64,000 bases of DNA. It comes from Prorocentrum cordatum. Lineage: Eukaryota > Sar > Dinophyceae > Prorocentrales > Prorocentraceae. The notes under the pieces are model-generated. The model saw only the letters and a list, made by a program, of their open reading frames with translations. It was not told the origin of the DNA and made no database searches. Each line of letters starts with the position of its first letter. Within the stretch, counting starts at the first letter, position 1. The position numbers and the translations under genes are program-made. Below are positions 266 through 40,895 of this stretch, piece after piece. The stretch covers positions 1 through 64,000 of the forward strand of contig CAUYUJ010005049.1 in assembly GCA_963575745.1 (NCBI GenBank), in the 5' to 3' direction.

Positions 266-287
266 TCCGTAGCCATTTTGACTCAAG
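266..287 (+). other. Relic dinoflagellate spliced leader (LINE-A 5' end)
   Basis: The 22 bases read T-CCGTAGCCATTTTG-A-CTCAAG. They match the known dinoflagellate SL (DCCGTAGCC, ATTTTGGCTCAAG) except for one G-to-A change. The ORF1 ATG lies three bases downstream at 291. I infer that a trans-spliced element mRNA was reverse-transcribed with its leader and inserted. Confidence 0.85.
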
Positions 288-290
288 GTT

Positions 291-1585: not shown

Positions 1586-2082
1586 CGGGACCAGCTGTGA
1601 GTCAACAGTGATCCGCTGGTTGCCGTGTTGGGCCTGCTGCCTCACCGTGCAGGCGGCTTCGCCCAGTGGCACGGTGGCTGGGGCGATTGACGCCAACCCC
1701 TTGTTCGCGCGACCTGTCGACAAGGGGCCCGCGGCGGCTCTTAACTCGCCTGGCTGCGGCTCTCGGAGCCCGTCAACAGTCGGGAGCCTCGTGCCCAATG
1801 TGGTGGTTCGCGGGGCCTCCGCGAAGACGGTGGTCGCAGCCCCCGCCGCGAGTTCGCCTGGCTGCGCCCTGGGCGCTGCAGTCGGGGGCGGCGCGAAGAC
1901 GCGCGCTGCTCGCAGGGCCTCCGCGAGGAGGATCGCGCACAGTCCCCCTGCTGCGACAAAGAGCCCTCCGCCAGGAGCGGAGGCGGCCACGCAGGCTACA
2001 GGGGGCAGGAGGCTCGAGCCGAAGGCAATCTGATGGCAGAACTAATGGACACTCTGACTGGAAGCAGCTGTTGACGCCTTGA
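1586..2082 (+). other. LINE-A ORF1-ORF2 junction, no clear product
   Basis: This is a GC-rich stretch between the ORF1 stop and the first endonuclease-like sequence. Two frames are open across much of it, but neither shows a domain I recognise. It may hold the decayed ORF2 N-terminus. Confidence 0.4.
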
Positions 2083-5000
2083 GCGAAAGCAGCAGGTGGT
2101 GCAGTGCTCCACTCTGTGAAAGCAGAGATGGGCACGATCGCCACCATCAACTGCTCGGACGAGAACCAGATGTGCGACTACTTGGGCACGTCAACACGCC
2201 TGGTCGTTGCAATTCAGGAAAACCATGTACCTGGGCATCGCCTCGCATACGTTCAGCATGCATTTCGCGACGTGGGCTGGATGGGGCATCTGGTCGGAGG
2301 CGCACTTGACGGGCCAGGGCGAAGGTACGCGCGCTGGCATGGCCATCCTCTCTCCCGGCCATGTCTCGATTACTCAGCCGCCTTGTTTTGCCTGCGCCAG
2401 CTTTCGCTTCTGTCAGAGCCCTAACTGCCCAGGTGCGCTGGGGCATGCCCGGGGGGTTCGCGTATATCAGCATGTGTGCTTGTCATCGAAGGATGGTCAG
2501 AGCGGAACGCTAGCATACTTGAAGAGCCATGTGCATACCTCTCGCGTTTGAATCACGCAAGCCACGATTGGGTGGCCGCCGGAAATTTCAATATGGAGGT
2601 GGGGGAGTTGTGGGGTTTGTCTTGGATTCACGGGAATGGGGGAGTTCTGACAGTCCCCGCCGCGACCACCTGTAGGCAGTCTCTCCCAGGACGGCGCATG
2701 GACTATTTCATAGCTGCACAAAACTTAGTGGCGCGGTCCTCTCCCTCACCTCCCTGTGCGCATGAGCGGGCGCGGTAAGGGTTTGCCTGGTTTGACGCGT
2801 GAACTGAGAAAGCCTAAGGCTGTCACGCGTCAGCCTCCGCCAGGATGCTCTCGGTCCCCGACGAACTGGACGGGGGTCACTAGTTTAATCAGCGAGGCAT
2901 GCGATGATGCATCACTTCAGCTTGCTTGGGATGCGGTTCTGTCCAACCTGGAGCTTGAGATGCTCAATCGATGCGATTTGGTAGGACCAGCGGCCCAGCT
3001 TCACCTCGGCCGAGCTGGCAAAGTAGACTTCGTCCTCATATCAATGCAAAACCAGCTCGTAGCCGTGAGCGCCCTGGCCCGCCGGAGCAGGCCTGGGCGG
3101 TCGCAGCTCGGCGGGCCAGGCACCTCCGTCGGAACCGAGATGCGCTCGTGCATGTAAGTACCTTTATGGCCACTGCGAACGTCAATGGTGATGGCACGAG
3201 GCAGCAGCATCGCAAGACTGCCTTCATGTTGTGAGGACTCACTCGCCCGTTTTTTTGAGACGGGACTCGAGGTGTTTGCCCGACCTGATTTCGAGGGTGC
3301 GGTTTCAATGATGAAGTGCGCGATGCTAACCATCTGCCTCGGACCTCAGCCCAACCTCACCTCCTCGCGGCTCGCTCGATGAGGGAGCGGGTGGGGATTT
3401 GGGATCACTATGGGGTGGATGCCCCAAGCCTGCCGCCCGACGCGGGTGAAAGGGGCGAGTTGCCCCCCACGTCGGTTCGTGATGTCCGAGCGGCGCTGCT
3501 CAAGTTCCCATGAGGGACACGAGTAGGCCAATTCGACTTCACCCCGCGCAGTTTGATGTTTTATGCGATCTTTGGATTCAGGCCCTGGCGGATTTGTGTC
3601 TATGCGCTGCGAGGCCCTATCCACTAGGCCCTCGCAACGTCTGCTCACGCAGCTCGTCCACCTCCCGAAACCAAAGGGGGGATGCAGGTTGATTGCGTTC
3701 ATGCAGACGCTTGCCCGAGTTTGGGGCGATCTCCGCCGCTCTCTTGCCGCGCCCTGGGAAGCCAGCCACCCCCTTGAAAGCGCATGGGGATCAGGGGCGG
3801 GCCGTTCCTCCTCGGATAGCGCCTTCTCGTTGAACCTGGGTGCCGAGATTGCCCGCGAACTGGAAGAGGACAGCCTCGCTCTTTTTGTAGGTATGATTAA
3901 ATGCTACTAAATGGTTATAGTAGCGCGAATGTTAGATGAGGCACGGGCGGTGAAGTTCCCGTTGCGCCTGGTTGGCGACGCAGTCCTACCTCCAAACCCG
4001 CCAACTTCGGCCGTTCTCGCGCCATTTCTTCTCTTACTCCCTAACCAAGGCGTTCTAGCTGGCTGATCGCTAGCTACTTCTATGCTACAGGTGCTGCTAT
4101 ACCGTAGCTTAATGCGAGCCCAGCAGATCTGTCCAAGTGTGAACCCTCGAGATTTGATCACGTTAGCTTTCACTTGTCTGGACGCCGGCTTGGTAAGGGA
4201 GCTGTTGGAAGAGACGGCTCTCAGGATCTGGCCTTGGCGGTGCGTACTTTTAGAAGAGGCGTTGGGCCGTTGGGGCTCATCATACAGCCGAGCAAACCAG
4301 GTTTTGTGGCTGATTGCGCGCGCAGTTGCAAGCGATTCACTCGACATGTTCGCGCCCACGGAATTGCTAAGAAAGTCGCGAAACTTAGTCTAGGCCATGA
4401 GATGCATGGTTCGAGGGTGGGACGTGCGCAAGAAACAACTGCACTCGTAATTTGCAGGCCAAGCGTAGAAAGGATTGGGGCTTAAGCGTGCGGCCGGAGA
4501 GGCCGCTCAGACCCCTGGAGAACGGGGCGCCTCCCAGCAGCTGGTCATGGGGCTGGTGTTTCTGGGATCTCGGACACGTTCGCGCGGGGTCTTGCTGGGG
4601 TCAAGCCTAAGTCGTGCCCAGCTTTGTATTTAGCCACACAGAAGGACGATCGAGCCGACCCGATATTTGATTCCTCCGTTCCGCTCGTTGGGCGATATGC
4701 CGCGGCGCCGTGGGAAGGCAGAGTCGATCATGCCCGCCTACACCGAGCATGGGCCCGGATCCGCGATCGGCTGGCCACTCGTGTCACGTGGGCTGGAGCT
4801 CGAGGCCCCATCCACTCCCACTCGGTCTGGCTTACCCTGGCGAGGGTCGGTTGGTCCATGGTGTCGCCCACTGCTTTGAAAACCGACCAAGGATATGTGA
4901 TTGACCATTTGTGTTTCTGCCCCTGGGATGTGCGCCGCCTCCTCGAGGATGGTATCCGTCGGTTTCAGTCGAGCCGCATCCTCATGCGCCTTCCTGATGG

Positions 5001-6620
5001 GGGTCAGGAGTCTTGCTGGCGTCGTGCCTTGCGAGTAGCTCTTCAAGGATGCTAGCGGGCAAGGCGCATCGCGGGCACTGTGCGCTGAAGGTGTGTGGAC
5101 GCCTGTTCGGTTGCACTCTATTGACCTTCGGTCCGCGCCCGATTGTTTCGCGCGCAGAAACTGTCCAGGCACGGAGGCCCACCCATGGTTTGGATGCCCC
5201 GAGGCTCTTAATGTTCCCGACGCAGAGCGGCCCCCAGATGAGGTCCTGGAGCACAGAGACGCCATGATTTCTAACCACGGTTCTGGGCCCCAGGGCCTCG
5301 GAACTAGCTATGTGCTGCCGCCCGAGCCGCCGCTGCCCGGCGATCCCTGCGCTGGGTATCCCGTCTCGGGATGGGGGGGCTGGCGGGGAGTTTTGGGGCG
5401 GAGGGTGCACGCGGACGGTTCTGGCTTCGCATCGCCGACGCCAGGGCTCACTCGCTGTGGCTGGCCAGTTATCGAGCTCGACGAGTCCGGCATAATGCTT
5501 AGAGCGGTTCACGGAGCGCCACCAGGGCCTATCCAGACGGTACCGCGTAGAGTATCATGCGGCGCGGATGGCTGCGCAGTTTGCAGGCAGTGATACTGAT
5601 CTAATCTCAGGCCACGTGTCGCTTGTCAAAGCTGGCCGCGCTTAGGGGCCCCATAATGTAAATGCCGAGTCTCGTAGCGCGTCCGTCTGGAGAGCTTTGC
5701 ACAGCAGGTGCAAGGACGATGTGCCGAGGTTTTCTTGGGTCCCGTCACACAGGCCTGTAGAAGATGTGCTGGCTGACCCATTGGCCTCGTATCTGGATTG
5801 CATTGGCAACGCATGCGCAGACCATTTTGCGAAACAAATGCACGCGCGCATATGGTAGCCCAGACCCTAGAACAACATCAACATATTCTTCTTGCTGCAT
5901 TCGTCAAGGATGCTCGTGCTGGTTTTGGATGACCAGGGCGGTGGCCAGAAGGGCTGATGGGCTCCAGCCGCGGGTCGACGTGCCCGAGCCTCGCCGAACT
6001 CCCCCTCCACTGGCCCCCGTTGTCCAAGAAAATCATGATTCGAGGGTGTGCGATCGATTGTCGGGATATCGTGGTCGATCGTGTAACCGCTGGGCCCGCA
6101 CCTCAAATCCCCTCCCGTGCTCTCCGACGGCAGCCCTGCCAACCATCTGGATTGTGCCGTGCTCTGCCGTCAGGTTTTCCAGCCTCACGCCTGAGGTATA
6201 CCGCCGTCAGACAGGTTCTGTCGCCGTGGCGCGTCGAGCAGCCCGTGACCTCGAGCCTGCTGCTGCAGGCCCCGAGGACGGGCCCGTGGACGGGGACGGC
6301 GGGGGGGTCGTCGCCGTCGCCGTCGAGGAGGACGGTGGGAGCATGATCGCGCAGGCACTCACAGCGCTGGGCCATCGTGCGGAACGGTTCGGCGCGCATG
6401 TGAATTGCTTGCCGTGCGGGGCGTGTACCATGTCGCAAGGCCGCAATCGTAAGCTAGAAGCTCGATGTGTCGGTCCGTCTTCTGTCGCTACGACCCGTTC
6501 GAACCAGGAGCAAGCCATCTCTCGTATAACGAGACGGCTCGACCCTCGCACAGGTACGTTGTCAATTGAGCGACCTTGCCTTTTCGCAAGCTCAGGGGCC
6601 TCCGACCTCATCGTGTAATA
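2083..6620 (+). pseudogene. LINE-A ORF2 (endonuclease, reverse transcriptase, RNase H), many frameshifts
   Basis: The APE-type endonuclease shows in pieces: a VVAIQEN motif near 2200, a WVAAGNFNME motif near 2570-2595 and RRMDYFIA near 2690-2715, with frame changes near 2290 and 2470. A linker with NRCDLVGPAAQLHLGRAG lies near 2965-3020. RT follows: LPKPKGGCRLIAFMQT near 3665-3710, a motif A region where the catalytic Asp appears lost (LFVGMIKCY near 3880-3908), and motif B (NQGVLAG, stop, SLATSMLQV) near 4040-4095. RNase H has VHADGSGF near 5410 and GNACADHFAK near 5805-5840. The C-terminal Cys motif is near 6395-6430 (NCLPCGAC). The known role is target nicking and target-primed reverse transcription. 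Many shifts and stops make it a pseudogene. Confidence 0.75.
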
Positions 6621-6640
6621 GGCTAGGTTGGGGGTGCAAG

Positions 6641-6796
6641 AGTGTGCATGAGCTGTGCCTGACAGCCGTCCTTTGTCGCTGCTCCACAGCTTTCGGTGCC
6701 CCCATCGCTCGGGACCTGAGTGTGCATGACCTGTGCCTGACAGCCATCCTTTGTCGCTGCTCCACAGCTTTCGGTGCCCCCATCGCTCGGGACCTC
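6641..6796. repeat. 78-bp tandem duplication, two near-identical copies
   Basis: The unit starting at 6641 repeats from 6719 with very few differences (for example GAGCTGTG against GACCTGTG). The high identity suggests a recent local duplication just past the LINE-A 3' end. Confidence 0.9.
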
Positions 6797-9879: not shown

Positions 9880-11601
9880 AAACCAAAAAGTGTAAGTTTC
9901 AATTTATCCTGGACGAGTTAATCGAGCTCGACCAGATCAACGACGCAAGGAGACTACCAGCATGTTCTCCAGAAGTCGAATCTGGCGCGAAAGCGAGGCC
10001 AAATGATTTTGCCCAACTACTTGGAGGGGATCTTCAAGACCGGATGGACGTACTCATCTGGATCATCTTCTGCGTATCTGCAAGATATGTATATGTATAT
10101 ACATGTATTGGTCGGCTGCTCTACGAGGGTACGCACTCTCACTATGTGGGAGCTTCGACGTGCACTGAAATCGATGAAACTCTGGAGAGGTTAAGATGAG
10201 ATTGGGATCGTGGTGGAAATGGTCAAAGCATTTCTACTTGACTTTTCAATACAAGTTTAGTGAGGGCGCAATTGACCCGACCTGGATAGAGATAACGTTT
10301 TCGATGCTACCGAAGGCTGGTGACCTAAGCTTTCAGCAGAACTGGAGGCACGTCGAAATTTTGGGAATCTCATACAAACTCTTCGCGCGTCTACTGTACC
10401 ACCGCATTCGCGGCGAGTTGGACGCCCAACAATCAGACGACCAAATGGGATTTCGCTTTGAACGATCGGTGGATGAAGCTTTCATCGTATTCGAAACTGT
10501 GTGCGGCAAGTGCTTGTAATGGAATGTGCCTGTGGTGTTTGATCCTGGACATGAGCAAGGCCTTCGATCAAATTGAACTCCAACCGCTGCTAGACTCGTT
10601 CCAGAGCCAAGGCGTGGGAGAAAAATACATCGCAAAGTTACACGTTATCTATACAAACCAACGCGGGCGAGTTCGCGGTTCTCGTTGTTCTGAAATACAA
10701 AGGTGCGTCAATCAAAACGAGGCCCTGAGCCCATTGCTTTTTCAATGCGGGGTTCGAATCAGCACTTCGCAAATGTAAGGTCCGGGTAGATGAGAAAAAA
10801 ACGTTCTAATTGATAATGGGGGCGCCCAAAATAACAGATGCGCGGACGACACCATGATTGTCGCTGCATCACGTGCGGATCTCATCATAATGGCCACGGC
10901 GCTCAAAAAGGAACTTGCTAAACAAGGTCTCAGCCTGAACGCGGGAAATACACATGTATTTACGACAGTATGCGACATCAACGCGGGTTCGCTGGACGTT
11001 GGAGGCGAACCCGCGGACGTTCTGAACGGTGACATGGCCCACAAATATGTTGGAAGGAAGTTGTGCGGCAACCTACGTTCGAGGAGTACTTTTGAGGTTG
11101 GACATCGGGCTCAAAACAGCATGGATGGTATTCCATAAGCATCGCGACATCTTAATGGACAAACAACTAAGCATGTACTCCTGGATCAAGTTCCTCGGCA
11201 CAGTAATTACTCAGACGGTATTGTTTGGCCTCTCGTCTTCTGCAATGGCACGGTCGCAGTTGAGCTCACTGTGGTTCAACGGAGGATGTTCAAACAATCG
11301 TTGGTTGGATTCGCCTGGAAGACGAGCCGTAGGACAACACAATGCGGAGGATGAGGCTGAAAGTGTATGCTGCCCCAATACCATATCCCATGGAAGACTG
11401 GAGGGTCCCATTGCTACGACGACAGTACAGGCTGGCTCAGCGAGTAGGCACGATGGCAGACAGCTGGCCAAAAGCATTGCGTTGGCGCCCTCCTGCAACT
11501 TGCCCTGGGGCTGGACGATCGTGTGGACGACCCGGAGTGAGATAGGACGGCCACCCGACCGGACTGCCTGCTGCTGCCTGCTTCGGAGGGCCGAAACCTA
11601 G
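9880..11601 (+). pseudogene. LINE-B, reverse-transcriptase remnant of a different non-LTR lineage
   Basis: A series of plus-strand frames gives RT motifs in order: WELRRALKSMKL near 10147-10185, DEIGIVVEMVK near 10196-10230, an RT1/2 region (RHVEILGISYKLFARLLYHR) near 10345-10405, motif A ILDMSKAFDQIE near 10540-10575, motif B QNEALSPLLFQ near 10710-10740, motif C CADDTM near 10838-10856, then the thumb and tail (KHRDILMDKQLSMYSWIKF; VLFGLSSSAMARSQLSSL) to about 11270. A tail with MRRMRLKVYAAP and LLRRQYRLAQRV lies in another frame (11342-11470). The AFD motif A and DALSPLLF-like motif B differ from LINE-A and LINE-C. Several frameshifts; no endonuclease recognised. Confidence 0.75.
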
Positions 11602-14268: not shown

Positions 14269-14383
14269 TGAAATCCAGGGATCCCTCGAACCCTCCGAAG
14301 GCCCTCGCCGAGCCCTCCCCGCTCCTCGCTTGAGGGGCTCGTTTTCCACCACCACCACCAAAAGTTGGAGACGGGGAGGGGGC

Positions 14384-14795
14384 CCTCCTCCTCTCCCCCT
14401 CCCCCTCCTCCTCCCCCTCGCCCCTCCTCCTCCTCCCCCCTCCCCCTCCCCCTCCCCCTCCTCCCTCCCCCTCCCCTCCCCCCCCTCCCCCTCCCCCTCC
14501 CCCTCCCCCCCCCTCCCCCTCCCCTCCCCCCTCCCCTCCCCCCCCCTCCCCCTCCCCTCCCCCTCCCCCTCCCCCTCCCCCTCCCCCTCCCCTCCCCCTC
14601 CCCTCCCCCTCCCCCTCCCTCCCCCTCCCCCTCCCCCTCCCCCTCCCCCTCCTCCCCCTCCTCCCCCTCTCCTCCTCCTCCTCCTCCTCCTCCTCCTCCC
14701 CTCCTCCTCCTCCTCCTCCTTCCTCCTCCTCCTCCTCCCTCCTCCTCCCCCTCCCCTCCCCCTCCCCCTCCCCCTCCCCCTCCCTTCCCCCTTTT
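14384..14795. repeat. CCCCCT/CTC polypyrimidine microsatellite at the LINE-C 3' end
   Basis: About 400 bp of CCCCCT and CTC units on the plus strand, so the LINE-C sense strand carries (GGGGGA)n. It lies directly beyond the LINE-C 3' end, where a retroposon tail would be expected. The many long open frames across it are repeat translations. Confidence 0.92.
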
Positions 14796-14862: not shown

Positions 14863-17800
14863 TTATACATGTTGGAGCCGCGACCACCATTCCCTTTCGG
14901 GAGACGGAGACTCTAGGGCCCACGGTTTTGAGACGTGCTTACCACGGGGCCACGGCAACTTCCCGCCAAGAAGCTGCGCCCTCTGTTGCCTGAAGATTTT
15001 GACGCACGGGGCCCCCAAGGCCCTGGCAGGGCCAGTGGTGTAGGCCCCGCACCGCAAACAGAAAACCACGGGCAAGCCTGACTCTATCACTTTGCAAACG
15101 TACAACTTGTGGGCGGGCTCAACCTCCAAATCTCTGATCTTTCTCAGAGCAGGCGTGAGGGCAGCGCACACACCCTTTGCTACTTTGGACCTGAATCCTT
15201 TCGCGCACCTGCTGCACCTCCACATGGGGCCGTTCCACAAAACGGCGCGAGAGCGCTTACTCGCAGCCCTGGGCGGGGCCCCCGAAAGCGCGACAGTGCG
15301 GTCCAGTTTCCCAAACAGCTCTTGGGCCTTTGGACATTCAACTAAGATGTTTGCTACTCCTAAGGCGACATCACTCCAGCCAGAGGACATGACTTCATAT
15401 CGGTGGATGTTCTCCAGCGTCATCGGATGGATCTTCGCCCCATCCTTGGCGAACTCATCAGCACGATCATTGCCTCTCTGGTGGCGAAGCGGGATCCCTG
15501 AAAGCTCCTCAGTGGTGTGGGCCTTGACTTTTTCCCAGCACCCATGTGGGATACGACTTCGCAAAAAAAGGGCCCGCCAAACTTCTGCAAGCGGAGTGTT
15601 GCCCGAGGTGGCCGAACATTTATCACTAGCAGACGCCAGGCTCTTGCGGCCCACATGAATCACAAAAGGGCGGTCAGGCTCCTCCCTCTCCGGGTCATCT
15701 CCAAGGTGGTTCAGAGCCTGAAGAAGCCCATAACACTCTCCGAAAACGGCGCTCTGAGGAAGGACACCAGGAACATTGCCATACACCGCAGAAACAAGTC
15801 CTCCTTCATCATTGACCGCCACCGCCGACCAACCTGCCCTGGCCACCTGCTCATACTTTCCTCCATAGCGCGACCCATCAGAATAGATGTGGACCGCCTT
15901 CGAGAAACGAAACTCGGAAATCGGGCCCTCAGGCCCAGCGTATCTGACTTCCCCACCCCAACTCGCGGGAACACCCCGTCTGGGCGAGGTAACCAAAGGT
16001 TCGTGAAGAAAGGATCCCCCTCCCCCGCTTCCAGTCCAGCCTCCACCCACTCTATCGGCATGTGCTCCTGCCTCAGCTCCTCAAAGTGCGGGCACTGGAA
16101 CACCCTGTGCCAGACGCTGTCTAGCGCCTGCGGGTTCCTGCAGAAAGGGCAAGTTGGCTCCACCTGGTATCTCCAGCGATGGAGATGCTGTGCCGTAACG
16201 AAGCTTCTAGTGAACGCCTGTTTGACGACACGCCTGAGGTGTTTCCCCTTGGAGCCATTCCAAAACGCGCGGGGCGGATCCGTCCAGAGACCTCCCTCCA
16301 GAATATCCTGTGCTCTAGGGTGTTCACTAGAGCTCAGGCACTTCTGCATAATCTCGGCCACAAGCTCCGTACCTAGATCCTTGAAGAGGTAGTTGGATAC
16401 CTGAACGTAGGGGATCTCCGTGAGCACAGATGGGGCCCCTGACCGCTTAGTAAACATACCTGGCCCACGAATGCTCCAAGACGCCTTGCCCATCCAGAGA
16501 AGCATGTCCCCCACAGGTCCCCACGATCTTGTGTCCCAAGAGGCCAGTTCACGCCGGTCCTGGTACTCTCGAACCACGTTGAGGATCCTATGGAGCTCCC
16601 CTATGGTGAGGCAATCTCCAGGTCTATGCATCAAATCAGAGGCCAGCCAAAACTCTTTCGCATAGCGTGTCATAGTCGCACAGGCGCGCTTCAAAGGGTC
16701 TCGTTGAGGTTCGAGCGCGAAGGCCAATTTGAGATCTGCTCCACAGCTCGAAAGTCCTAGTGCCTGCGGCCTGCGTCCGCAGGCGTCGAATCTCTCGGGG
16801 GTTCCAGCCCACCACCTCTTCGCCATAGGTAGTCGCAGGCTTTGCCCCGCAAAACCATATCTTAGCCCTGGAGCGTTTCTGATTTTATAAACTCATAATC
16901 TTATTGATCCTCCCCGATTGCTTCACCCGCCTCTCCCTCCTCTTCTGCTTCGCATGTTTGACACTCTTATGTTTGCCTGGGTTGAAATCCACGCCTAAAT
17001 TGACCAGCGATACATCATGCTGGCCTGCATACTGGGCGAGATTCAGCATGGCAATACGCACCAGATCCACGCTGGTGCCTGCGATACAGAACTTCTTCAT
17101 CGCGAAAGTCAGATTGAAGAGCTGAGAGAGGAGGTCTATCAGAAAAGCAAGGGCGGCAGCCAAGTTCCTGACGCACGTGACCATGTCTGCGCATCTTTCA
17201 TTTAGGCTGAAATCATCAACATGGACCGCCAACTCCGTCGAAAACCCCTGCTCCAGGAATATGTTTATCGTGGGAATGCAATAAACCTTCATTTCAAACG
17301 TAGCCGTACTGCTTCCAACGACAATCCCCTGATGTGGTAAAATCCCCTTGGGGCACCACTCCATCTAAATTGAGTATCCGCTCCCACGCATACGTGTGCA
17401 GTGCAAACCTTAAAGTGCACAACGGATACTGCCATTCTATCGCACTCTGCACAAGCTGGGGGTACTGCACGTGCTCGTGGCACTGAGTGAGGTCTGCAAG
17501 AAGGCTGAGCACGTGCTTGCGTTCTGCAGTCGCCAAGTCCCCTCGAACCTGCTGCCGCCACGCTGTGTCAACCGGCGACCTGCCTGCCCTCATGCTGAAC
17601 ACTCCCCAATCCTTCAACTTGTGCTCCCATCTCTCGCAATCTCTAGAATGCCACCTGGACACCAGCCTCACCGCGCTCTGGAAGAACCAAATCGGCCTCC
17701 TCCCCGAGACTGGCTTGCGAAAAAGGGCGAGGACCAGCTTCCTCATCCAGGTGGGCACCGCGCCCGCGACCGTCATAGCAGCCATAACCTGCTGGAAAAC

Positions 17801-19525
17801 ACCTAGCGCCTCGTCACAAAGCAGCATAAAGTGTCGAGGATGGAAACCATCCACAGCAATGGTGGCTCTGTTAAACGAACTGCTTAGGGCACGAATCTCC
17901 TCTATACTCGGGGGGTTCGGGATCACCATGTCTTTCGGCCAAATCACCTCCTTCTCCTCTATGGCATCCCCCCCCAAAGCTTTGCTCCACTTCACCTCCT
18001 CCTCCTCCAATTGACGAGTTAGACACGACGTGTGGTAGCCATCATCAGTGGGGTGGAGGTCCTGTTTACGATCGCTTGCCACCTTGGTGCACGCGCGCGC
18101 CCACTTGGCTCCACCTGCGAGGGCATCCGTGCACCAGTCGCTCCACTTGGCTGCCTTGTCCGACTTCTCTCGCGGCAGGCTCCGAGCGGCGACATGATCT
18201 GCGAACTGCTGCAGGGCTTTGAAAGTGTTCACAATCACATCTAGAAGCAGGATCTCGTAATGTACCCAAGAGCATCCAAGAGCCGCCTTCAGTAGGCCCA
18301 TCCAGGCCTCGCGTCCTCCAGGGTAGTGGTACCTGAAAATGCCTCCTGTCTCTGTAGCCCTATAGGTGGCCTTGAGGAGCTTTGTGAAGTAGTTAGCGTG
18401 AGTATAATATTTACCTGACTGCACCAAACTTGCGATTTCGTGGCATCTGCGTCCTAACCAGCGCAGCGCTCTATAAGGGCTTCTCGCGGGGCTCCTCCGA
18501 GCGCACAACAACTCCCCAAGAGGCACCTCCGAAGAATCATACGGCTGACCTCCTTTGAGACCTTCTGGAGTCTGTTGCAGAGTTCCCTCAAGTTCCCCCC
18601 GCGCTTTTGAACACCAGCTCCTATATACTTCGTCAAGTTCGCTCTGAAGTAGATTCACTTCCCCTCCCTGCGGTAGCCGGTATCCACCCTCAATCTTCAT
18701 GGGCCTCAGGAGGTGCTCAAGCCTGTCCTGCAGATCCTCATAGTCGGGCGCCTGCGGGGCGGGGCCTATGGGGAGGTCCACGGGCAGCTTCGCAAACTGA
18801 ATCATCCTCTGAACCCTGATGTCATCAACTCGAGTGTGAAACCGTACTGTTACAGGACGGTGAGGGAAAATGTCCGTGTTCGTGTCCGTGCTGGCATTCC
18901 GAATGGCATGTAGCATCGGCTTGCTGACAATAAAGAAATCATAGCATTTGCCTGGCGTTGTGTTGCAGCAGGTGACCATCGGATCTGGGATCAGAACCTG
19001 GCCATTCCACTTGCGCGGAGCGAAGGCTTCACGGACCAGGGACGGTTCCATGTTGAAGTCTGCGCCGATCACAAAAGGAAGAGAACGCTGCAAGATGTCA
19101 TGTCCAAGGATCTGCGCCATCTGCACATTCCTACGCGACAGACCCTCGCTGTCGTGGAAGTACGCACAGTACAGAGACATGATGCCAAGCTCTTTGCTGC
19201 GGAAGTATACGTGAATCAAGCGATGCGCTACAATATCATGTTGCTGCCGAGGGTCGCTCCAGGCATCGAGATGCGCACGAACAAAAATGGCTACTCCTGC
19301 CGAGCGCCCCATGGCTGTCGTGACCTCGCACTGAGTAAAGAATGTCTTCCAACCCAGCCTGCGCATCGCTTCCCTCGCCTCAAGAAGGCGTCGACCATGA
19401 AGCTTATGTTCTTGAACCAGTACTATGTGAGCCTCACTGAGCTTGATGAGGTTGGCTGCAGTCGTCCAGCAATTGCCGTTGACGGTGAGCACCTGCAGCC
19501 CCTCGGCGGCGGCAGCCGCCGGCAA
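14863..19525 (-). pseudogene. LINE-C ORF2 (endonuclease, reverse transcriptase, RNase H)
   Basis: The first long frame (19525-17294) holds an APE-type endonuclease: TVNGNCW, VLVQEHKL, IGADFNMEPS, YDFFIVS and FPHRPV. RT motifs follow (IAVDGFHPRHF; motif A LLADLTQCHEHV). A frameshift near 17345 leads to 17364-16885 with motif B (GIVVGSSTATFEMKVY) and intact motif C VHVDDF near 17217. Further shifts near 16885 and 16780 lead to 16826-15711 with a CPFC/H/C knuckle. Another, near 15960, leads to RNase H (YSDGSR, FGECYGL, GNDRADEFAK) and a C-terminal CLRC motif. The third RNase H Asp is replaced (HVGRKSL near 15648). No in-frame ATG precedes the endonuclease; the frame is open from 19597, overlapping ORF1. 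Confidence 0.85.
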
Positions 19526-19529
19526 GGTG

Positions 19530-20669
19530 TTACCCTCGCGATGGGCCTGCGGCCTGAGCCGCAGCCTCCGCAGCCGCTGCCTGATCGCCCTCGCTCTTCA
19601 GCTTCTTGTCCGCCTGGCTCGCCAGCGCCTCGTCTGCGACCCGTCGGCCCGCCAACGCCGCCGCGGCCATGGGGACATCAGCATCAGCGCGATGCTCCGC
19701 CGCCGCCGCCTCCTCGCGTGCTGCCGCCACGGGCTGCCCAGCTTCCGCGGTCTGCGGCGCGGCGCTGGTGGCGGCGGCCGCAGGTGGCGTCGTCCCACCG
19801 CGGGCGCGGATCTCCGCGGCGAAGCTCTCCATGGGTTGCCAGAGCTCCTGCATGAGACTCGGGGCAAGCCCCGTGCTGAGGAAGTTCATACCGTTGAGGA
19901 AGGCCTGCGCGTCCATCTGTCCGTTGGCGACCCCGAACTGGCTGAGCGCACCCACGGCCTGTCCTTTCCCCGCTGGCATCGGGTCGGGGAGCCCTGGAAG
20001 CGTCGTGTAGAGATCATACACCGCCTCTTGCGGCAGCCTGAGAGCCGCCACTTTATCTTCCAACTCCGCCTGCGTGGCCTTGGCTGCTTGAACCTCGGCC
20101 TGCAAAAGCGCCTTCTTGACCCCTAGGTCCTGAAACGCCTGCATCTGCTCCTGAACATAACGCGTCTGGGCCTCCAGCTGCTTCTGGGTTCTGTTCAGCT
20201 TGGCGAGCTGTGCCTGCTGCCGCTGGGACACTGTCTTCTCGCTGTCGCGCTCCTCACGCAACTTCTCCAGGACCGCCGCGATGGCCTCAGACGCTTCCAT
20301 CGTGGACTCCTCGTCCGCGCCAGTCTGCTTCGCCGCCAGCGCCTTCAATGAGTCCAGCGTGCCCTGCAGCTTCTGAATATGCTGTTTGTTTGACGTGTTG
20401 GGCTCCCTCGCCGCGCCTGAAGGCTGCTGTGCCTTACGCTGCGGTGTGGAGACCCCGCTGCCCGACGATGTCACCTCAGCTACCCAGTGAACGCCGCATC
20501 TCCAGCACCATTGGTCTTGTAAGCTGACTAGGGCGTGGCACCCTGGGCATGTCCACGAAAAAAATGACGGCGCCTGCGACATGGACTGAGCCTGGGGGGG
20601 GCGAGTCCTGCCCTTCCCCTGGCCCTGGCTCTTCTTGGCCTTGTCCTTGCCGCTGCCACCCTTGCCCAT
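19530..20669 (-). CDS. LINE-C ORF1 protein (zinc motif plus coiled coil), intact
   Basis: I place the start at the ATG at 20669 (GCAGCGATGGGC context), giving 379 aa; the frame is open further upstream but only through microsatellite. The N-terminus is basic and Gln-rich. A double CxxC (CPGC near residue 37, CWRC near 53) could bind zinc. A long Gln/Glu/Leu/Lys-rich stretch (about 95-205) should form a coiled coil. The tail is Ala-rich and ends in GPSRG. The layout matches retrotransposon ORF1 proteins that trimerise on element RNA, inferred from architecture alone. The stop TAA (19532-19530) lies inside the open ORF2 frame, which is +1 relative to ORF1. Confidence 0.8.
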   Translation of the reverse strand: MGKGGSGKDKAKKSQGQGKGRTRPPQAQSMSQAPSFFSWTCPGCHALVSLQDQWCWRCGVHWVAEVTSSGSGVSTPQRKAQQPSGAAREPNTSNKQHIQKLQGTLDSLKALAAKQTGADEESTMEASEAIAAVLEKLREERDSEKTVSQRQQAQLAKLNRTQKQLEAQTRYVQEQMQAFQDLGVKKALLQAEVQAAKATQAELEDKVAALRLPQEAVYDLYTTLPGLPDPMPAGKGQAVGALSQFGVANGQMDAQAFLNGMNFLSTGLAPSLMQELWQPMESFAAEIRARGGTTPPAAAATSAAPQTAEAGQPVAAAREEAAAAEHRADADVPMAAAALAGRRVADEALASQADKKLKSEGDQAAAAEAAAQAAGPSRG

Positions 20670-20757: not shown

Positions 20758-20787
20758 CCCTTACCCCTCCAAATGGGAGGGGAATGG

Positions 20788-20807
20788 CTTGAGCCAGGGG
20801 CTACGGA
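20788..20807 (-). other. Degraded spliced-leader relic (LINE-C 5' end)
   Basis: The minus strand reads CCGTAGCC-CC-TGGCTCAAG. This is the dinoflagellate SL with its central ATTT replaced by CC. It sits between the microsatellite and the leader box, as in LINE-A and LINE-D. Weaker than the other two, but position supports it. Confidence 0.65.
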
Positions 20808-34597: not shown

Positions 34598-34982
34598 GAA
34601 GGAGGAGGAGGAGGAAGGAGGAGGGAGGAGGAGGAAGGACGAGAAAGAGGAGGAGAAGAAGGAGGAAGACGAGGAGGAGGAGGAGGAGGCAGAGGGCGAG
34701 AAGGACGAGGAGGACACAGAGGAAGAGGAGTGCCCTAGGAGGCCCCAGGATGTCCCGGGAGACCCAGAAGGCTCCAGGAGGCCCCAAGAGGCCCAAAGAG
34801 TCCCCAGGAGGAGGCAGAAGGCCTAAGGAGGAGGCAGGAGGAGGGGGTGGCATAGGAGGAGAGGGAGGAAGATGGAGACGAGGAGGAGGAGGAGGCGGAG
34901 GAGGGGGGGGGGGGGGGGGGAGGAAGATGGAGAGGGGGGGAGGAGGAGGAGGAGGAGGAGGAGGAGGAGGAGGAGGAGGAGC
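34598..34982. repeat. (GGA)n microsatellite at the LINE-D 3' end
   Basis: GGA array with a poly-G run near 34905-34920. Same strand sense as the tract at the LINE-D 5' end (39818-40115). Confidence 0.94.
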
Positions 34983-34999: not shown

Positions 35000-37900
35000 T
35001 GCTGGTCCACGGCCAAGCGGAGCAGGCCCTGCAACTTAGGCGAGCGCCTGACAGACACTCGGAGCCTGCCTTGGATAACCTGCTGAGCGAAGAGCTGAAA
35101 GACGGGGGGGGAGGCGCGCAAAGCTTGAAAGGACGAGTGGACGGCGTCTAAAGCAAGGAGATAACTAGGCAGAGCATCGGGGCCCGAGATGTGAAAAAGG
35201 TGGGGGGGGGGGGGGAGGAACTCAGGGGATCTTCGCCAAAGTCATCAGGAAGAGCAGGGAGGAGGTGCTGAAGGACGGGACGGCATACACCACAATTCAA
35301 ATAGTGAAGGACATCATCACCTCCGACACATGAGCAGCCGAGACACATCGGCCTGGACCTTGTCTGTAGCGCCTTGTTGTGTACCAGCTGTTGAATATTG
35401 TTTTTAGGAGCCCAGCGAATATATACCCAGGAACCACTTGAGCACTCCGAAGCACACGAATAAAACACAAATCCATTTCGGCCTTGGAGACCCTGGGAGC
35501 CCATGTTTGCACCCTCTGGTACAGGAGGCAGGACGCGGGGTTTGGATACGCGTCAGCTGAAATCATTTTCGCCAACCTTTTCTGGACCTGCTTGGGCAAG
35601 CACCGGTCAGGCAACCTGGGAATGTAGATGGACGACTCATAGTCCTCCATCAACTGCACAAAAAGCGAGCGCTGATACTGAATAGAAAACTTATGCGTGA
35701 GGAGGAACTCGTCTGTCTCAAGGGGCTCGTGGAGCTTATCTCGCAAGATCGGGAAGAGGGAGGAGTTGTGGGCGACCCTGAGCCTAGCAGCACGACTCTG
35801 CACCTCCAGGGAGTTGGCTTGCACACTCAAGCCGAGGTCCTGAAAGCGATGGAAGAGGCCTGGAGGGAACGAATGACGCGGACTGCAAGTATACAGCTGA
35901 TGAGCTTCTCTCTCCATTCTTAAGACATACGTATTGGGCCTATAGCCCTGACCGACATATGAGGCAACTGGAAGGGCGTACCTGTTGTGGGCCACGAGGC
36001 TGGTGATGAGACCTTCCCCCAAACTTTTGACCAAGTGGGCCCGAGCCAGAAGTTTGGCCCCGACAGGCTTCCAGGAACGGTCCTGACCATCAACACCAAG
36101 GAGGAACCCAAGGTACTTCCCGTACAGCTGGATCTTAAATTGGTGCACTTTTATCCCGGCCTCCTTAAACTTTGCGACGGCGCTCTCCATCTTGCCAGGG
36201 TCAGTGAGGATTATCACACACTTGGCAATGTTCAACAGCAAGCCCGAGGAGAAGCCAAACTGAACGATTGCTCTGGCCACAGGGCCGAGTGCACTAAAAA
36301 TGTCCGCCGCGACCAGGCCGAGGTCGTCAGCGAACGCAGAGACTTGCTTCGGCAAGTCGGTGGGAATCAGGCCGATATAGCGTAACAATGGATCAAGACA
36401 TAGAACGAATAGAACTCCAGAAAATGGGCAACCTTGTTTAACTCCTCGGAGGGCCGTGAAGGAGACCTTGGGAGAGCCTTTGAATTCAATCCAACAGTGC
36501 ATGTTCTGATATAGGGTCAGAACCGCTACGATGATAAACTCAGGGAACCGATAGGCACGCATAACCTTCCAGATCCACTCATGCAGTCCTGACGGAAAGG
36601 CAGCGCGAAAGTCATAGAGACATGCACCGCAGTCTCTATGCCCAAGAACAGACCTCCAGTGCATCATGTGAAAGTCTACCTCTAGCACGTTGTCCATGAT
36701 ATTCCTACCTTTGATGAATCCCCTCTGCGACGAATGGCCCCGATCAGCGAGAACCTGGGAAATCGGCGAAGCGATCAGCGACGAGACGAGCTTGTTATCG
36801 GTGTTGGATAAAGCGATCGGTCGAGTTTCGTCGTCCCCCTTCAGAACGTTCTCGGGATCATCAATCTCACCCTTCGCCAGGACAGCTAGCTCGGCAGCGT
36901 TGAACTGGCTGCTCACGCGGCCGCCGTCGAGCACGTGCTCGTAGAGCTCGAACAGCGCCTCCTGGGCAACGGGACCAGCAGCTCTCCAAGCGCTGTAGCA
37001 CAAGCCGTCGGGTCCTGGGGCAGAATCCTTTTTCCTGCGCAGGAGGCCCAGGAACTGATCAAACGTTTTTTTTTTCCAGGGAAATCTCTGGTGGGTCGAG
37101 TTCGTGCATTGGTACTCGTCGGGGTCCATGGGGGGAACCAGCTCCGGATATTGGCCTCCAGGATCCGCGGAACCCGCCCAAGCGCCAAAGACAGAGCCCC
37201 AATGAAAGCAGAGCAGCTGCGCGCACACCGAGGGCTCAGTATGGGCGAATCCGTTCTGGTCAACAATTCCTCTGAGACAAATTGCACGCTTTTTTTATTT
37301 TTTTCTTTTTTTCCATGCTTTGGCCAACCTCCTAATCCTCATCAAGAAATCTGCGTTGCGCGGGGGGGTGCCCTCAGGGTCCCTGAGGTTCTCCTCTAGC
37401 GCCGCCAACTCCTGATTCATGAGGGAGGTGAGGTGAGAGTGAAATTCATGCCAATCATTCCAAATCATGTTGTCATGGTCGAAGAAGGAGGAGAGGATAG
37501 GGTAAGCACGAACGGCATCGGCTGCTGCCTTGCAAAGCCCAGACCTGCGGGCGCGGGCAAGCCTGAGACAACACGCCAACTTCTCGGCCAACGTGTTGGC
37601 AGAGGTCTTAAACATATCGGCCTTGGCGCGGTTGCCAGCAGCGGTGATCAGCAGCTTGATTTCCTCGAGCTTCTCGGCTGGATCAGAACTGAACTCTCGT
37701 CCTTCTGCAAGGTCTTCAAAGTACTTTGCAAACGCGTGCCGCCTGAACACCCACGGAGGAAGAGACAACTCTCGGCGCGGCTGCCACGGCTGCAACGAGA
37801 GGCACACGGGGACGTGGTCGGAGGGGAAGGTGAGATCTGTGATATTCCAAATAGTATTACACGTGGGACATAGGTCTAGGAGATCAGGAGTAGAGATGCT

Positions 37901-38710
37901 GCTATAAATTCTGTCCAACCTTCCAAAGGAAACTGATTCACGAGGATGAGTAACGACTCGACGATGCGCATACTGCGGTTGCCCAAGCTCAGCGTGTTGA
38001 GGAAAGAGAGAGCGAAACAGAGCGGCACGCCTGGCGGGAACGAAGCGATCGGTCCCTTGAGTAGCATTGAACCTACCTTCCCCAGACTCGTGACAATTGA
38101 AGTCCCCAAGGATAAAAGACGCAGTATCCAGGGCGGGCCACAGGATGGATTTTACAGCCTGGAGTTGTCGACGGACCGCGGGGTCAGGAAGTTCGGGATC
38201 AATGTGTAATTTGACGATTTGCAACTCACCCTTGGGACCTCTCAGATTCAAAACCGCAACCCGGCCTGGCACTGGCTCGCGGAACTCGGAGAAGGGGAAA
38301 TCTCTCAGCAACTCGGTGGCGACAAAAATGAGAAGACCACCAGCACTAGCACGTGAGCAGAAGGAGCCAAAGACGGAGTGATACCTGAATTCTCGCTCAA
38401 GATGAGGCAGATCCCCTGGGGCACCATGAGTTTCCTGAAGACACACGATCTGGTTTCGCTGTAAGATGGCTTGTAGCTTATGAAACTTATGCTGAACACG
38501 AATGTGACCGGCGTACATAGACCCTATAAGGGCCTGGGAGTTCCACGTCGTTATCCGAAACGAAGCGTCAGGTAGGTAATAACAACATGTGGAGGAGGGG
38601 GGCGGAAAAACCGATGCTTCTGCTCTACTACTGGCTGGAGGCTGAGGGGGGCTAGAGGGAGCACTAGACTGGGCACAGCAAACCCCGCGCACTGCCAAGC
38701 CTGGGCTCAA
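35000..38710 (-). pseudogene. LINE-D ORF2 (endonuclease and reverse transcriptase), frameshifted
   Basis: The frame 38710-37295 is a full APE-type endonuclease: TTWNSQALIG, IVCLQETHG, FILGDFNCH near 38085, GRLDRIY and SDHVPV. It ends at a TAA in an A-rich run (KAWKKRKK, stop at 37297-37295), a likely slippage site. RT resumes in 37228-35297: APGPDG, RPIALSNTDNKLVSS, GFIKGRNIMDNV, motif A YDFRAAFPSG, motif B GVKQGCPFSGVLF and motif C FADD near 36334, all catalytically plausible. A shift near 35430 leads into 35504-35148, which has a C/C/H/C knuckle (CLGC, then DDVLHYLNCGVC). C-terminal-like sequence continues to about 35000. No ATG precedes the endonuclease; the frame opens at 38746. Confidence 0.87.
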
Positions 38711-38750
38711 AAAAGCTTCAGAATCGAGGTGCCCTTCAGCCGCCGTTCAT

Positions 38751-39629
38751 TCAAAGAGCGGCGATCAGGGAGTCGATCTGGTCCTTCGTGATATCGAAGA
38801 GCAGCAAGCTCTGGTAGATGGGCTCCAGCTTGAAGGTGTCCTCTCCCTGCGGCACGGCCTGCACTAGCTCGTAGACGTGGTCATCCGTGATCACTTGCAA
38901 CACTCCTTTGTGCCCGTTGACACCGAGCTTCGAGCCACCTGTCCACTTCGGGCTGGCCTGGAGCTTAGTGAGCACGTCGCAAAAGAGCCCAGAGAAGGCC
39001 CTCTTCTTCTGGCGGGCATGGAGCGGCAAGTCGCCCCTGACCCTGAGCGGGTACTTCTTCCCGTCGCAGAAGTCCACCCACTCCATGTTCACATCGTTCA
39101 TCTTGGTCTGGAAGCTCTTCGCGTCGTCGTCGTTCTCGAACTTCAGCTTGTATACCTGGCTTACTCCGTGGAAGATGGCAGTCACGCGCTTCTCGTCCTT
39201 CAGTTCGGGGAAGTGGTCCTGCATTTGTTCCCAGTGAGCCTGGCGAGTCTTCATCAAGAATGGCCTCGGAAATGTCCCCACGAAGCGGATGCAGGGATCG
39301 CTCTCGAGGTCGATGACTGGTGAAACCTTCCTGGCCTTGTCACCGTTGAACTGGCGGATGGGCGGGCCACCCAAGAGAGACGACTGAAAGCTGCCTGTAG
39401 ACCGCGAACTGCCTGCAACACTGCCACCAGCCTCCAAAGCGGCAAGCCGTTGTCCTTGGGCTTGTAGATCAGCACGAAGGGCCTTCAGCTCGGCGCCCTG
39501 AGTGGAGATCTGCCCCTGCTGACCTGTCACCGCCGTCTGAACCTCCTGCTGCACCACTTTTCGAATGCTAGTCTTCTGCTTCTCGAACATGGCCTCAAGG
39601 GAAGCCTGCAGCGCGGGGTCAATCGCCAT
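38751..39629 (-). CDS. LINE-D ORF1 protein (coiled coil plus C-terminal domain), intact
   Basis: The start is the ATG at 39629 (GCAGCCATGGCG, a strong context), giving 292 aa from MAIDPALQASLEAMFEKQ. The longer upstream frame runs through the SL relic and microsatellite and is not credible protein. A helical, Gln-rich coiled coil covers about 8-75 (VVQQEVQTAVTGQQGQI). A compact, mixed alpha/beta-looking domain fills about 100-285 (RFVGTFPRPFLMKTRQAHW; VYKLKFENDDDAKSFQ; WVDFCDGKKYPLRVRG). Size and layout resemble LINE ORF1 RNA-binding proteins, and the domain could be RRM-like; that is inference. The stop TGA is followed at once by ATG (38750), which opens only a five-codon frame. Confidence 0.82.
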   Translation of the reverse strand: MAIDPALQASLEAMFEKQKTSIRKVVQQEVQTAVTGQQGQISTQGAELKALRADLQAQGQRLAALEAGGSVAGSSRSTGSFQSSLLGGPPIRQFNGDKARKVSPVIDLESDPCIRFVGTFPRPFLMKTRQAHWEQMQDHFPELKDEKRVTAIFHGVSQVYKLKFENDDDAKSFQTKMNDVNMEWVDFCDGKKYPLRVRGDLPLHARQKKRAFSGLFCDVLTKLQASPKWTGGSKLGVNGHKGVLQVITDDHVYELVQAVPQGEDTFKLEPIYQSLLLFDITKDQIDSLIAAL

Positions 39630-39755: not shown

Positions 39756-39770
39756 CTGCGCCACCTCGAG
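39756..39770 (-). promoter_or_regulatory. Conserved 5'-leader box, LINE-D copy
   Basis: Identical CTCGAGGTGGCGCAG to LINE-C 20743-20757, in the same place relative to the SL relic. Confidence 0.6.
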
Positions 39771-39780
39771 AGATGTTTTA

Positions 39781-39817
39781 CTTGAGCCAAAACGGCTTGA
39801 GCCAAAATGGCTACGGT
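39781..39817 (-). other. Tandem spliced-leader relics (LINE-D 5' end)
   Basis: On the minus strand, 39817-39796 is a perfect 22-base dinoflagellate SL (A-CCGTAGCCATTTTGG-CTCAAG). It is followed directly by CCGTTTTGGCTCAAG (39795-39781), the 15-base truncated relic CCATTTTGGCTCAAG with one change. A full SL followed by a 15-base relic is the pattern described for recycled dinoflagellate mRNAs, where a new SL is trans-spliced at the AG inside an older one. Confidence 0.92.
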
Positions 39818-40115
39818 GGGAGGAGGAGGAGGAGGAGGAGGAGGAGGAGGAGGAGGAGGAGGAGGAGGAGGAGGAGGAGGAGGAGGAGGAGGGGGAGGAG
39901 GAGGAGGAGGAGGGATAGGGATAGGGAAAGCAGAAGGAGGAGGACGCAGGATGCAGAGGAGGAGCAGGGGGAATGGGGGGAGGAGGCATAACGAGGAGGA
40001 GAAAAAGGAGGAGAAGGAGGTGGTGGAGGCAAGAGGAGGAGGCAGGGGTTGAGGCAGGAGGAGGAGGCAGGAGGAAAAGGAGGAGGCAGGAGTAGGTGGG
40101 AGAAGGGAGGGGGCA
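39818..40115. repeat. (GGA)n microsatellite at the LINE-D 5' end
   Basis: GGA array grading into AGGAGGCAGG repeats. Directly joined to the SL relic. Confidence 0.94.
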
Positions 40116-40895
40116 GGAGGAGATCCCTAGGCAAGCTAAACCTATTCTCATGTGGGGCCCGACCGTCGGAGGAATTGAGACAGCTCGATCACCATACGCT
40201 CAAGTTCGACATCGTGCCACTATGCTACAAAACTCGCACTTCGAAAATTAATCGCCCTGCTCCGTGCGCTGTGGATTAGACTCGGCTGCTGGGCCATGTG
40301 AATATGAGAGCTAAAATTTGCTTGCGATGCTCCACAAGCTGACGCCGCACACCATGCAATGAGGTATCCAGGTCATGGTCACTACAAATGTTTGGTCACT
40401 CATCGACTGGGCTGTGGACTAGACTGGCCCTTGACAAAAACGATTGCTTGAACCAAAAACGATGTCGCACACCCTGTTGATACATTATTGGATGGTACGG
40501 CCGTCTTGATGCGAACCGTCAGGTCGCAGTGCCCTCACTGTTGTTGCGTTGATGGGCGAAATCGAATGTAGTATAGGGGCCCGACCACAAGAAACCATCC
40601 ACAAGAAACCCAACCCTGAGACCCCAGGACGTCCACCGATTCTTGGTGTGGGAACGTCACGCTGTCCATAGCAAAACCATCGAAACCCAAGAAATTCAGG
40701 GCACCCTGGAGGCAAGCAGGGTGTCTCTTGGCATGGGCCTCCACTGTAGAACTGGCCTGCCCCCCCCCCCCCCTGTAAGCCTCCAACTGGGCCCTACCAA
40801 GGCGCCCTTCGCCCTCACCCCTGCGGGAGACGTTTGGTCTGATGGAGACGCTTGGTCCGGAGAGGGGAGAGGGGCAAGCTGGGCCCGCTCGCGCT
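40116..40895. other. Spacer; possible degenerate SL-like tandem near 40430-40470
   Basis: No gene recognised. On the minus strand near 40470-40430 two copies of ATCGTTTTTG followed by GTTCAAG or TCAAG resemble eroded SL relics, but the match is weak. A poly-C run lies near 40760. Confidence 0.35.

Follow-up and report, generated by a model that had tools for sequence, protein, structure and literature searches.

Dinoflagellate spliced leaders at the 5′ ends of LINE retrotransposons in Prorocentrum cordatum

Structure of LINE E3

Three LINEs, E1 to E3, are recognized in the window, that is, the whole stretch of 64,000 nucleotides from Prorocentrum cordatum analysed here. E3 is located on the minus strand and comprises ORF1 (38754–39629), an open reading frame with protein relatives, and an ORF2 with an endonuclease part (37295–38746; PF03372, 4e-13) and a reverse transcriptase (RT) part (35297–37294; PF00078, 8.9e-21). 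An RT domain with an APE-type endonuclease upstream of it is characteristic of LINEs, as is the occurrence of 5′-truncated copies (L047, probably L048) alongside full-length ones. The best solved-structure matches of the RT are R2 proteins, and L1 ORF2p is matched too. Three protein relatives of ORF1 were found, all from P. cordatum (75, 76 and 47% identity), and its predicted structure is too poor for use (mean pLDDT 46.9). CCT microsatellites (minus strand) border the element on the 5′ side (39818–40122) and on the 3′ side (34826–34982).

Dinoflagellate cells add a short spliced leader (DinoSL, hereafter SL) to their mRNAs by trans-splicing. At the 5′ end of E3, a complete 22-nt SL with A as its first base, ACCGTAGCCATTTTGGCTCAAG, reads from 39817 to 39796 on the minus strand, as found by pattern match and Smith-Waterman scan. 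It abuts, without a gap, a truncated relic identified by direct reading, CCGTTTTGGCTCAAG (39795 to 39781, minus strand), which corresponds to the last 15 nt of the SL with a single A-to-G change; TAAAACATC... lies directly 3′ of this relic. Further into the 5′ UTR, sequence comparison reveals a 15-mer, CTCGAGGTGGCGCAG (39756–39770, minus strand), that is identical in E2. A 21-mer SL pattern (three mismatches or fewer) occurs twice in the window but never in 100 dinucleotide-shuffled versions of it. Furthermore, in a Smith-Waterman scan with the SL plus one relic, the three top matches in the window are the 5′ ends of the three LINEs, scoring 67 for E3 (39.8 kb, minus strand), 37 for E1 (267, plus strand) and 32 for E2 (20.8 kb, minus strand), compared with a top score of 28 in any of 40 block-shuffled windows. 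The reading and the shuffles confirm what the first-pass annotation had described on the minus strand, namely a perfect 22-base SL followed without a gap by a 15-base truncated SL with one substitution; its placement of this tandem at the 5′ end of a LINE also stands, with ORF1 and the ORFs matching PF03372 and PF00078 downstream. SL-tagged retrocopies are recognized by just such an SL, complete or truncated, where a cDNA-like insert begins. Upstream of E3 (40425–40461, minus strand), two imperfect tandem SL-relic-like stretches score 26, inside the shuffle range.

The other LINEs in the window

E1 (288–6795, plus strand; 3′ boundary approximate) is decayed and was delimited by its similarity to pieces of E2, with four collinear pieces resembling the endonuclease (two), RT and RNase H regions of E2 (E 2e-3 to 8e-5). 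Its SL (266–287, plus strand; pattern match and Smith-Waterman scan) has one mismatch and follows a CTC tract. At the 3′ end of E1 (6640–6795), a 78-nt unit is present in two tandem copies (97%).

E2 spans 20806 to about 14800 on the minus strand and starts with a decayed SL, CCGTAGCCCCTGGCTCAAG (20788–20806, minus strand; Smith-Waterman scan), after a GGGA/GGA tract. The 28 nt behind this leader (20760–20787, minus strand) are possibly two decayed relics: aligned end-to-end to the relic dimer, they are equalled in score by 4 of 2000 shuffles, and in local alignment by 172 of 2000, which is not significant. E2 ORF1 (19533–20669, minus strand; ORF and domain search) contains zinc-finger-like and coiled-coil stretches with weak matches, and ORF2 (17297–19597, minus strand) extends from the endonuclease (PF03372, 2.2e-6) on towards the RT. 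The 3′ part (14863–16080, minus strand) has a weak RNase H match (0.0035, below Pfam's cut-off) and is followed by a GGAGGG array (14383–14792); a weak zf-RVT match is found in E2 too. At E 0.01, E2 and E3 are not similar at the protein level, and searching proteins with E2 ORF1 found no relatives. Both elements contain the exact 15-mer CTCGAGGTGGCGCAG right behind the leader, and E1 is without it. This 15-mer is part of a 5′ module (TAAMACATYTCTCGAGG...) that stands behind the leader of further loci found with the module in the query, and it is present in 9 of 13 further E2-type loci. Its interpretation as a tRNA A-box was dropped because no B-box was seen by eye; a tRNA scan found none, and the LINE 5′ end gave no Rfam match to an HDV-like ribozyme. 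The window also holds an RT fragment of another LINE type (10178–11135, plus strand) with no visible 5′ end.

Occurrence of the leader in the genome

The genome searched comprises 4,128,499,153 bases in 21,875 contigs. An SL-containing query (551 nt) gave 61 matches, with the best 40 of 578 candidates scored. From these, 15 ORF1-bearing loci (L012–L026) were fetched, together with 20 of the 24 loci matching at the 5′ end only (L027–L046; C18764, C18184, C15442 and C319 were left out). The SL is present in all 35 fetched loci, L012–L046 (scores 32–42 of 42), of which L027–L046, found through the SL and its module, are biased for SL frequency. A query of ORF1 alone (876 nt, no SL) gave 41 matches at 40 loci, all 40 candidates being scored, and lower-ranking copies may exist. 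The 16 best-scoring loci, whose matches start no later than nucleotide 18 of ORF1, comprise the window and L012–L026; every one of these 16 loci reaching the ORF1 start, on 16 different contigs, carries the SL at its 5′ end.

Of the remaining 24 ORF1-found loci, 20 were fetched (C7903, C20450, C16177 and C21304 were left out), and an SL was called clear at a score of 27 or more, the best antisense score being 17. A clear SL is found in 13 of these 20, and a decayed one behind a pyrimidine-rich tract in 3, with scores of 23, 17 and 15, the last two within noise; L057 has a decayed SL recognizable by eye only. L047 and probably L048 are 5′-truncated in CCT-rich sequence and have no SL, and L054 is too decayed to judge. 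Altogether, the 36 ORF1-found loci divide into 29 with a clear SL, 4 with a decayed SL, 2 apparently 5′-truncated without an SL, and 1 not assignable. L048 (C17467) lacks the SL despite an ORF1 match of 602 nt; thus, a long ORF1 match alone is no guarantee of an SL, whereas reaching the ORF1 start is, in the set examined. Because the SL-less copies look truncated within CCT-rich DNA, the SL appears to be brought in by the 5′ end of the RNA, the insertion site not being its source. The first-pass annotation had named full-length copies without an SL as the observation that would speak against its reading; none occurs among the 16 loci that reach the ORF1 start, and the SL-less loci look 5′-truncated or are too decayed.

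An SL at this position might instead derive from a gene neighbouring the LINE, either an unrelated retrogene or one for SL RNA, and SL-tagged retrogenes are common in dinoflagellates according to the accessible literature. For the E3 family, such an origin is refuted by the same arrangement at 16 of 16 loci on as many contigs, and overall we give it almost no chance. Assignment of the SL to the LINE itself is also supported by diverged relatives and by a second LINE clade.

Seven of the module-found loci (L035, L038, L041, L042, L043, L045 and L046) were tested for LINE domains. L041, without LINE-domain support, and L042 and L045, with weak RT matches only, are not counted as proven LINEs. 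L038 starts with an SL and shows an unusual domain order: a long ORF with an RNase H match (4e-5, which narrowly misses Pfam's cut-off) precedes a weak RT match. L043 and L044 are two contigs with the same element start and flank, representing an assembly haplotig or a segmental duplication.

Leaders in the E2 clade

An E2 query consisting of ORF1 and part of ORF2, without the leader, gave 51 matches, with the best 40 of 91 candidates scored. Besides the window, the 13 loci with matches at or close to the start of ORF1 were fetched; these matches begin at query position 1 (nine loci), 7, 10, 10 and 94. Twelve of the 13 have an SL-derived leader behind a purine-rich, mostly GGA-type tract. Leader scores are 20–37 in 11 loci and 18 in L074, with antisense scores of 10–14; the leaders of L074 and L075 were read by eye. 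L076, whose match starts at 94, has no SL-derived leader. An SL at the element's own 5′ end is a real, family-wide trait of at least two LINE clades. In the E2 clade (L067–L079), the ATTTT part of the outer leader frequently departs from the canonical sequence, and leaders differ even among copies with 92–97% identity. Unlike in E3, the outer SL is more variable than the element body, which counts against the model preferred below. The outer leader in this clade may be partly inherited; variant SL RNAs, selection or partial inheritance are possible sources of the variation.

Relic numbers and renewal of the leader

Relics, defined by three edits or fewer, were counted in 38 sequences (L012–L046 and E1–E3). 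The edit distance of the SL is 0 in 25 of them, 1 in 11, 2 in 1 and 4 in 1 (E2). No relic is present in 15, one relic in 20 and two relics in 3, where E2 counts as 0 by the rule and the relic of L016, with 3 edits, may be a deletion product. Within the E3 subfamily, the numbers form a ladder, with no relic in L013, one in the window and two in L012, all before the same TAAMACATCTC and with ORF1 95% identical.

The E3 leader forms a period-15 tandem of 2.1 copies, as a 15-bp slippage duplication inside the SL would also do in place of a second splicing round. We consider such slippage very improbable, since the same 15-nt unit recurs once or twice in different families (L012, L024, L033, L037 and L064), a result that random registers would not give.

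Near-invariance of the outer SL is evident in 12 copies of the TTCGAAACG type, where the SL differs by 2.4% pairwise and is perfect in 10, while the 120 nt of adjoining UTR in the same copies differ by 23.8% pairwise and by up to 46%; ORF1 differs by 15.7% over 16 copies. Relatives with proteins 24–43% identical to E3 have an SL that is perfect or one edit off, and the first base of the outer SL varies among copies (A/G/T). The junction between leader and body is situated at the same base in most copies of a family, though the flanking DNA differs; exceptions are L016 and L064. In L064, the junction consists of CCAAG followed directly by GGGCGGGG, and its AG is internal to the body of the relatives L061 and L063, as splicing at a downstream acceptor would give.

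Given the ladder of relic numbers and an outer SL that hardly varies although the UTR next to it has diverged, trans-splicing probably recurs in the cycle of these elements, and the leader seems to be renewed, not merely inherited; selection on the SL could mimic this signal. A rival account invokes an ancestral uptake of the SL by retroposition, after which it became fixed and was kept by selection, for example as a promoter or translation signal, with no new trans-splicing. Most families found via the 5′ module do keep exactly one relic (17 of the 20 loci L027–L046), the pattern expected of a fixed sequence, and this counts against recurring trans-splicing. The non-canonical leaders frequent among E2 copies fit passive inheritance as well, and a promoter motif TTT(G) inside the SL is proposed in the accessible text of PMC6050394. 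Nevertheless, we judge passive inheritance unlikely, given that close copies show 0, 1 or 2 relics, each step being the 15 nt that remain after splicing at the internal AG, that the SL stays intact in distant relatives as its adjoining UTR diverges, and that copies differ in the first base.

The first-pass annotation had proposed that this LINE lineage was repeatedly trans-spliced and that each round extends the 5′ end. Recurrence agrees with the ladder and with the SL invariance, but extension in every round is not supported: use of the internal AG in each round would make relics pile up, and between 0 and 2 are observed, so that in many rounds the leader must have been exchanged with no gain in length.

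The base before CCGTAG is T in 32, A in 5, G in 1 and C in none of the 38 sequences, whose flanks are 48% C, and T in 14 and C in 2 of 16 further loci. SL RNA reads D-CCGUAG. As evidence of an SL RNA origin, this count is weakened, since TCC arrays supply T anyway and two of the 16 further loci have C.

Microsatellite flanks

Tracts were defined as pure purine or pure pyrimidine over 18 nt or more, and nearness as lying within 15 nt. Such tracts cover 4.9% of the window, and 7.3% of its positions are within 15 nt of one; near them lie three of three LINE 5′ ends and two of three 3′ ends in the window, the 3′ end of E1 failing the strict rule. Among the 38 sequences, the 5′ flank is at least 90% pyrimidine in 26 and at least 90% purine in 5. 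The other flanks include L018 (N), L039 (a CAT repeat), L019, L040 and L041 (no such repeat), and L043 and L044 (83% purine). In the E3 subfamily, 14 of 16 loci have a 5′ flank of at least 90% pyrimidine (L018 has N there and L019 fails), as do 15 of the 16 loci with a placed leader in the ORF1-found set. On the 3′ side, 14 of 15 copies enter a CCT-type tract at roughly the same position; the tract is short in L026, and L019 is the exception. Members of the E3 subfamily are thus found in TCC arrays, in one orientation, and most copies have the same repeat on both sides, as is characteristic of microsatellite-targeting LINEs. E2 and its close copies lie in GGA-type tracts on the sense strand, and the distant relatives E1 and L035 in CTC-type tracts.

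Spliced leaders in other sequence collections

An RT search of viral contigs found none, and the tandem-relic pattern has 0 occurrences in them. In L001 (1800–2920; IMGVR_UViG_3300045993_001077), an AT-rich contig of a viral collection that is giant-virus-like by eye, a GC-richer gene lies directly behind a perfect SL, with a second perfect SL 147 bp upstream of the first; the arrangement resembles what viral capture of an SL-tagged host cDNA would leave. L003 (4334–4354, minus strand), from a contig assigned to a Dehalococcoidia MAG, has an SL followed by GTACGC that may be an SL RNA gene; it lies in a spacer next to what, by eye, are eukaryotic rRNA genes. In L002 (1–60), a TCA repeat, an SL and a short frame are joined to apparently bacterial genes on a Dehalococcoidia MAG contig that is probably chimeric, and the SL is again right behind a triplet repeat.

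Proposed replication cycle

It is highly probable, in our assessment, that E1–E3 represent LINE clades whose replication includes SL trans-splicing by the host. The DNA sequence strongly supports a passage through this reaction in their cycle, and host splicing appears to be an integral part of their copying. In such a cycle, a LINE copy would be transcribed, and the spliceosome would attach a new, capped SL to the transcript at an AG. This acceptor is most likely part of the SL-derived sequence already present in the copy, because the flanks differ yet the leader–body junction is at the same base in most copies. Use of the AG that ends the outer SL would replace the leader with its length unchanged; use of the AG inside the SL, between CCGTAG and CC, would add one 15-nt relic; and use of the AG that ends the inner relic would lose a relic. 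An AG in the body may be used occasionally, as in L064. The RT of the element would then copy the mRNA as far as its cap, with a TCC (or GGA) microsatellite as the target. A portable splice acceptor would thus be provided by the inherited SL, and in the E3 subfamily the TCC target would also place a pyrimidine tract before the SL. Trans-splicing in each round, the choice of acceptor and the role of the TCC tract are all three what we infer from these patterns. The stricter proposal that a TCC tract is needed for splicing was not kept, since copies in GGA-type tracts carry relics too.

A wider version of the model is more tentative, and we rate it at somewhat below an even chance. These LINEs might have lost a promoter-defined 5′ end and ride host read-through transcripts, from which they would be cut out and capped by trans-splicing at the AGs of the inherited SL, with the TCC target as pyrimidine tract and the acceptor rebuilt at each landing; the same machinery might lie behind the host SL-tagged retrogenes.

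Comparison with known systems

Slamovits and Keeling reportedly described SL-tagged retrogenes and tandem SL relics in 2008. LINEs that target SL genes include CRE/SLACS. NeSL is likewise a LINE linked to spliced-leader sequence, but it inserts into SL genes, whereas the SL here is proposed to be acquired through RNA.

In the accessible portions of PMC12014239, PMC6050394, PMC7245778, PMC3229502 and PMC3942190, SL relics on dinoflagellate retrogenes are described and the enzyme is left open; earlier work on such retrogenes with tandem relics is cited in PMC3229502, PMC12014239 and PMC6050394. As to candidates, LTR elements of the Ty1/copia type are favoured in the available text of PMC6050394 and suggested in that of PMC3942190, and LINE-mediated retroposition in Symbiodinium is suggested in that of PMC10235124. 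Those retrogenes resemble the present elements in having a full SL and 15-nt relics that end at the internal AG, a pattern interpreted as successive cycles of splicing and retroposition. They differ in that it is host genes that bear the tag there, whereas the unit here encodes its own endonuclease and RT and carries the SL as a family trait.

The trypanosomatid L1Tc/ingi elements with Pr77, as far as PMC8190864 was accessible, are likewise LINEs of a host that trans-splices, and their short 5′ module, common to several element types, may have its counterpart here. Pr77, however, is described there as an internal promoter plus HDV-like ribozyme with unspliced transcripts, whereas the host leader forms the 5′ end here and has no Rfam ribozyme match. 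Insertion into simple repeats is likewise known from Togen, in (TG)n, and some HERO families (accessible part of PMC4640811); these belong to restriction-like-endonuclease groups, whereas E3 is APE-type, sits in TCC repeats and has an SL. APE-type target-specific LINEs are known from the Tx1 and R1 clades in the same source. SymbioLINE-Dnmt comprises dinoflagellate LINEs with two ORFs as well, but with DNMT in ORF1, and the accessible text of PMC5890265 makes no mention of an SL at the 5′ end. No description of LINEs with the SL at their own 5′ ends was found in the accessible text of the open-access literature searched.

Implications

With these elements, SL relics, a known oddity of retrogenes, would become a property of retrotransposons themselves. 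The LINEs would be concrete candidates for the reverse transcriptase behind dinoflagellate retrogenes, an open question in the accessible text of PMC6050394, and mRNAs in which an SL is joined to a LINE are predicted. Relic counts would provide a record of rounds that is readable genome-wide. In addition, a LINE arranged in this manner could retain its whole 5′ end and dispense with a promoter of its own, by means of a borrowed host RNA-processing signal that is renewed with each copy.
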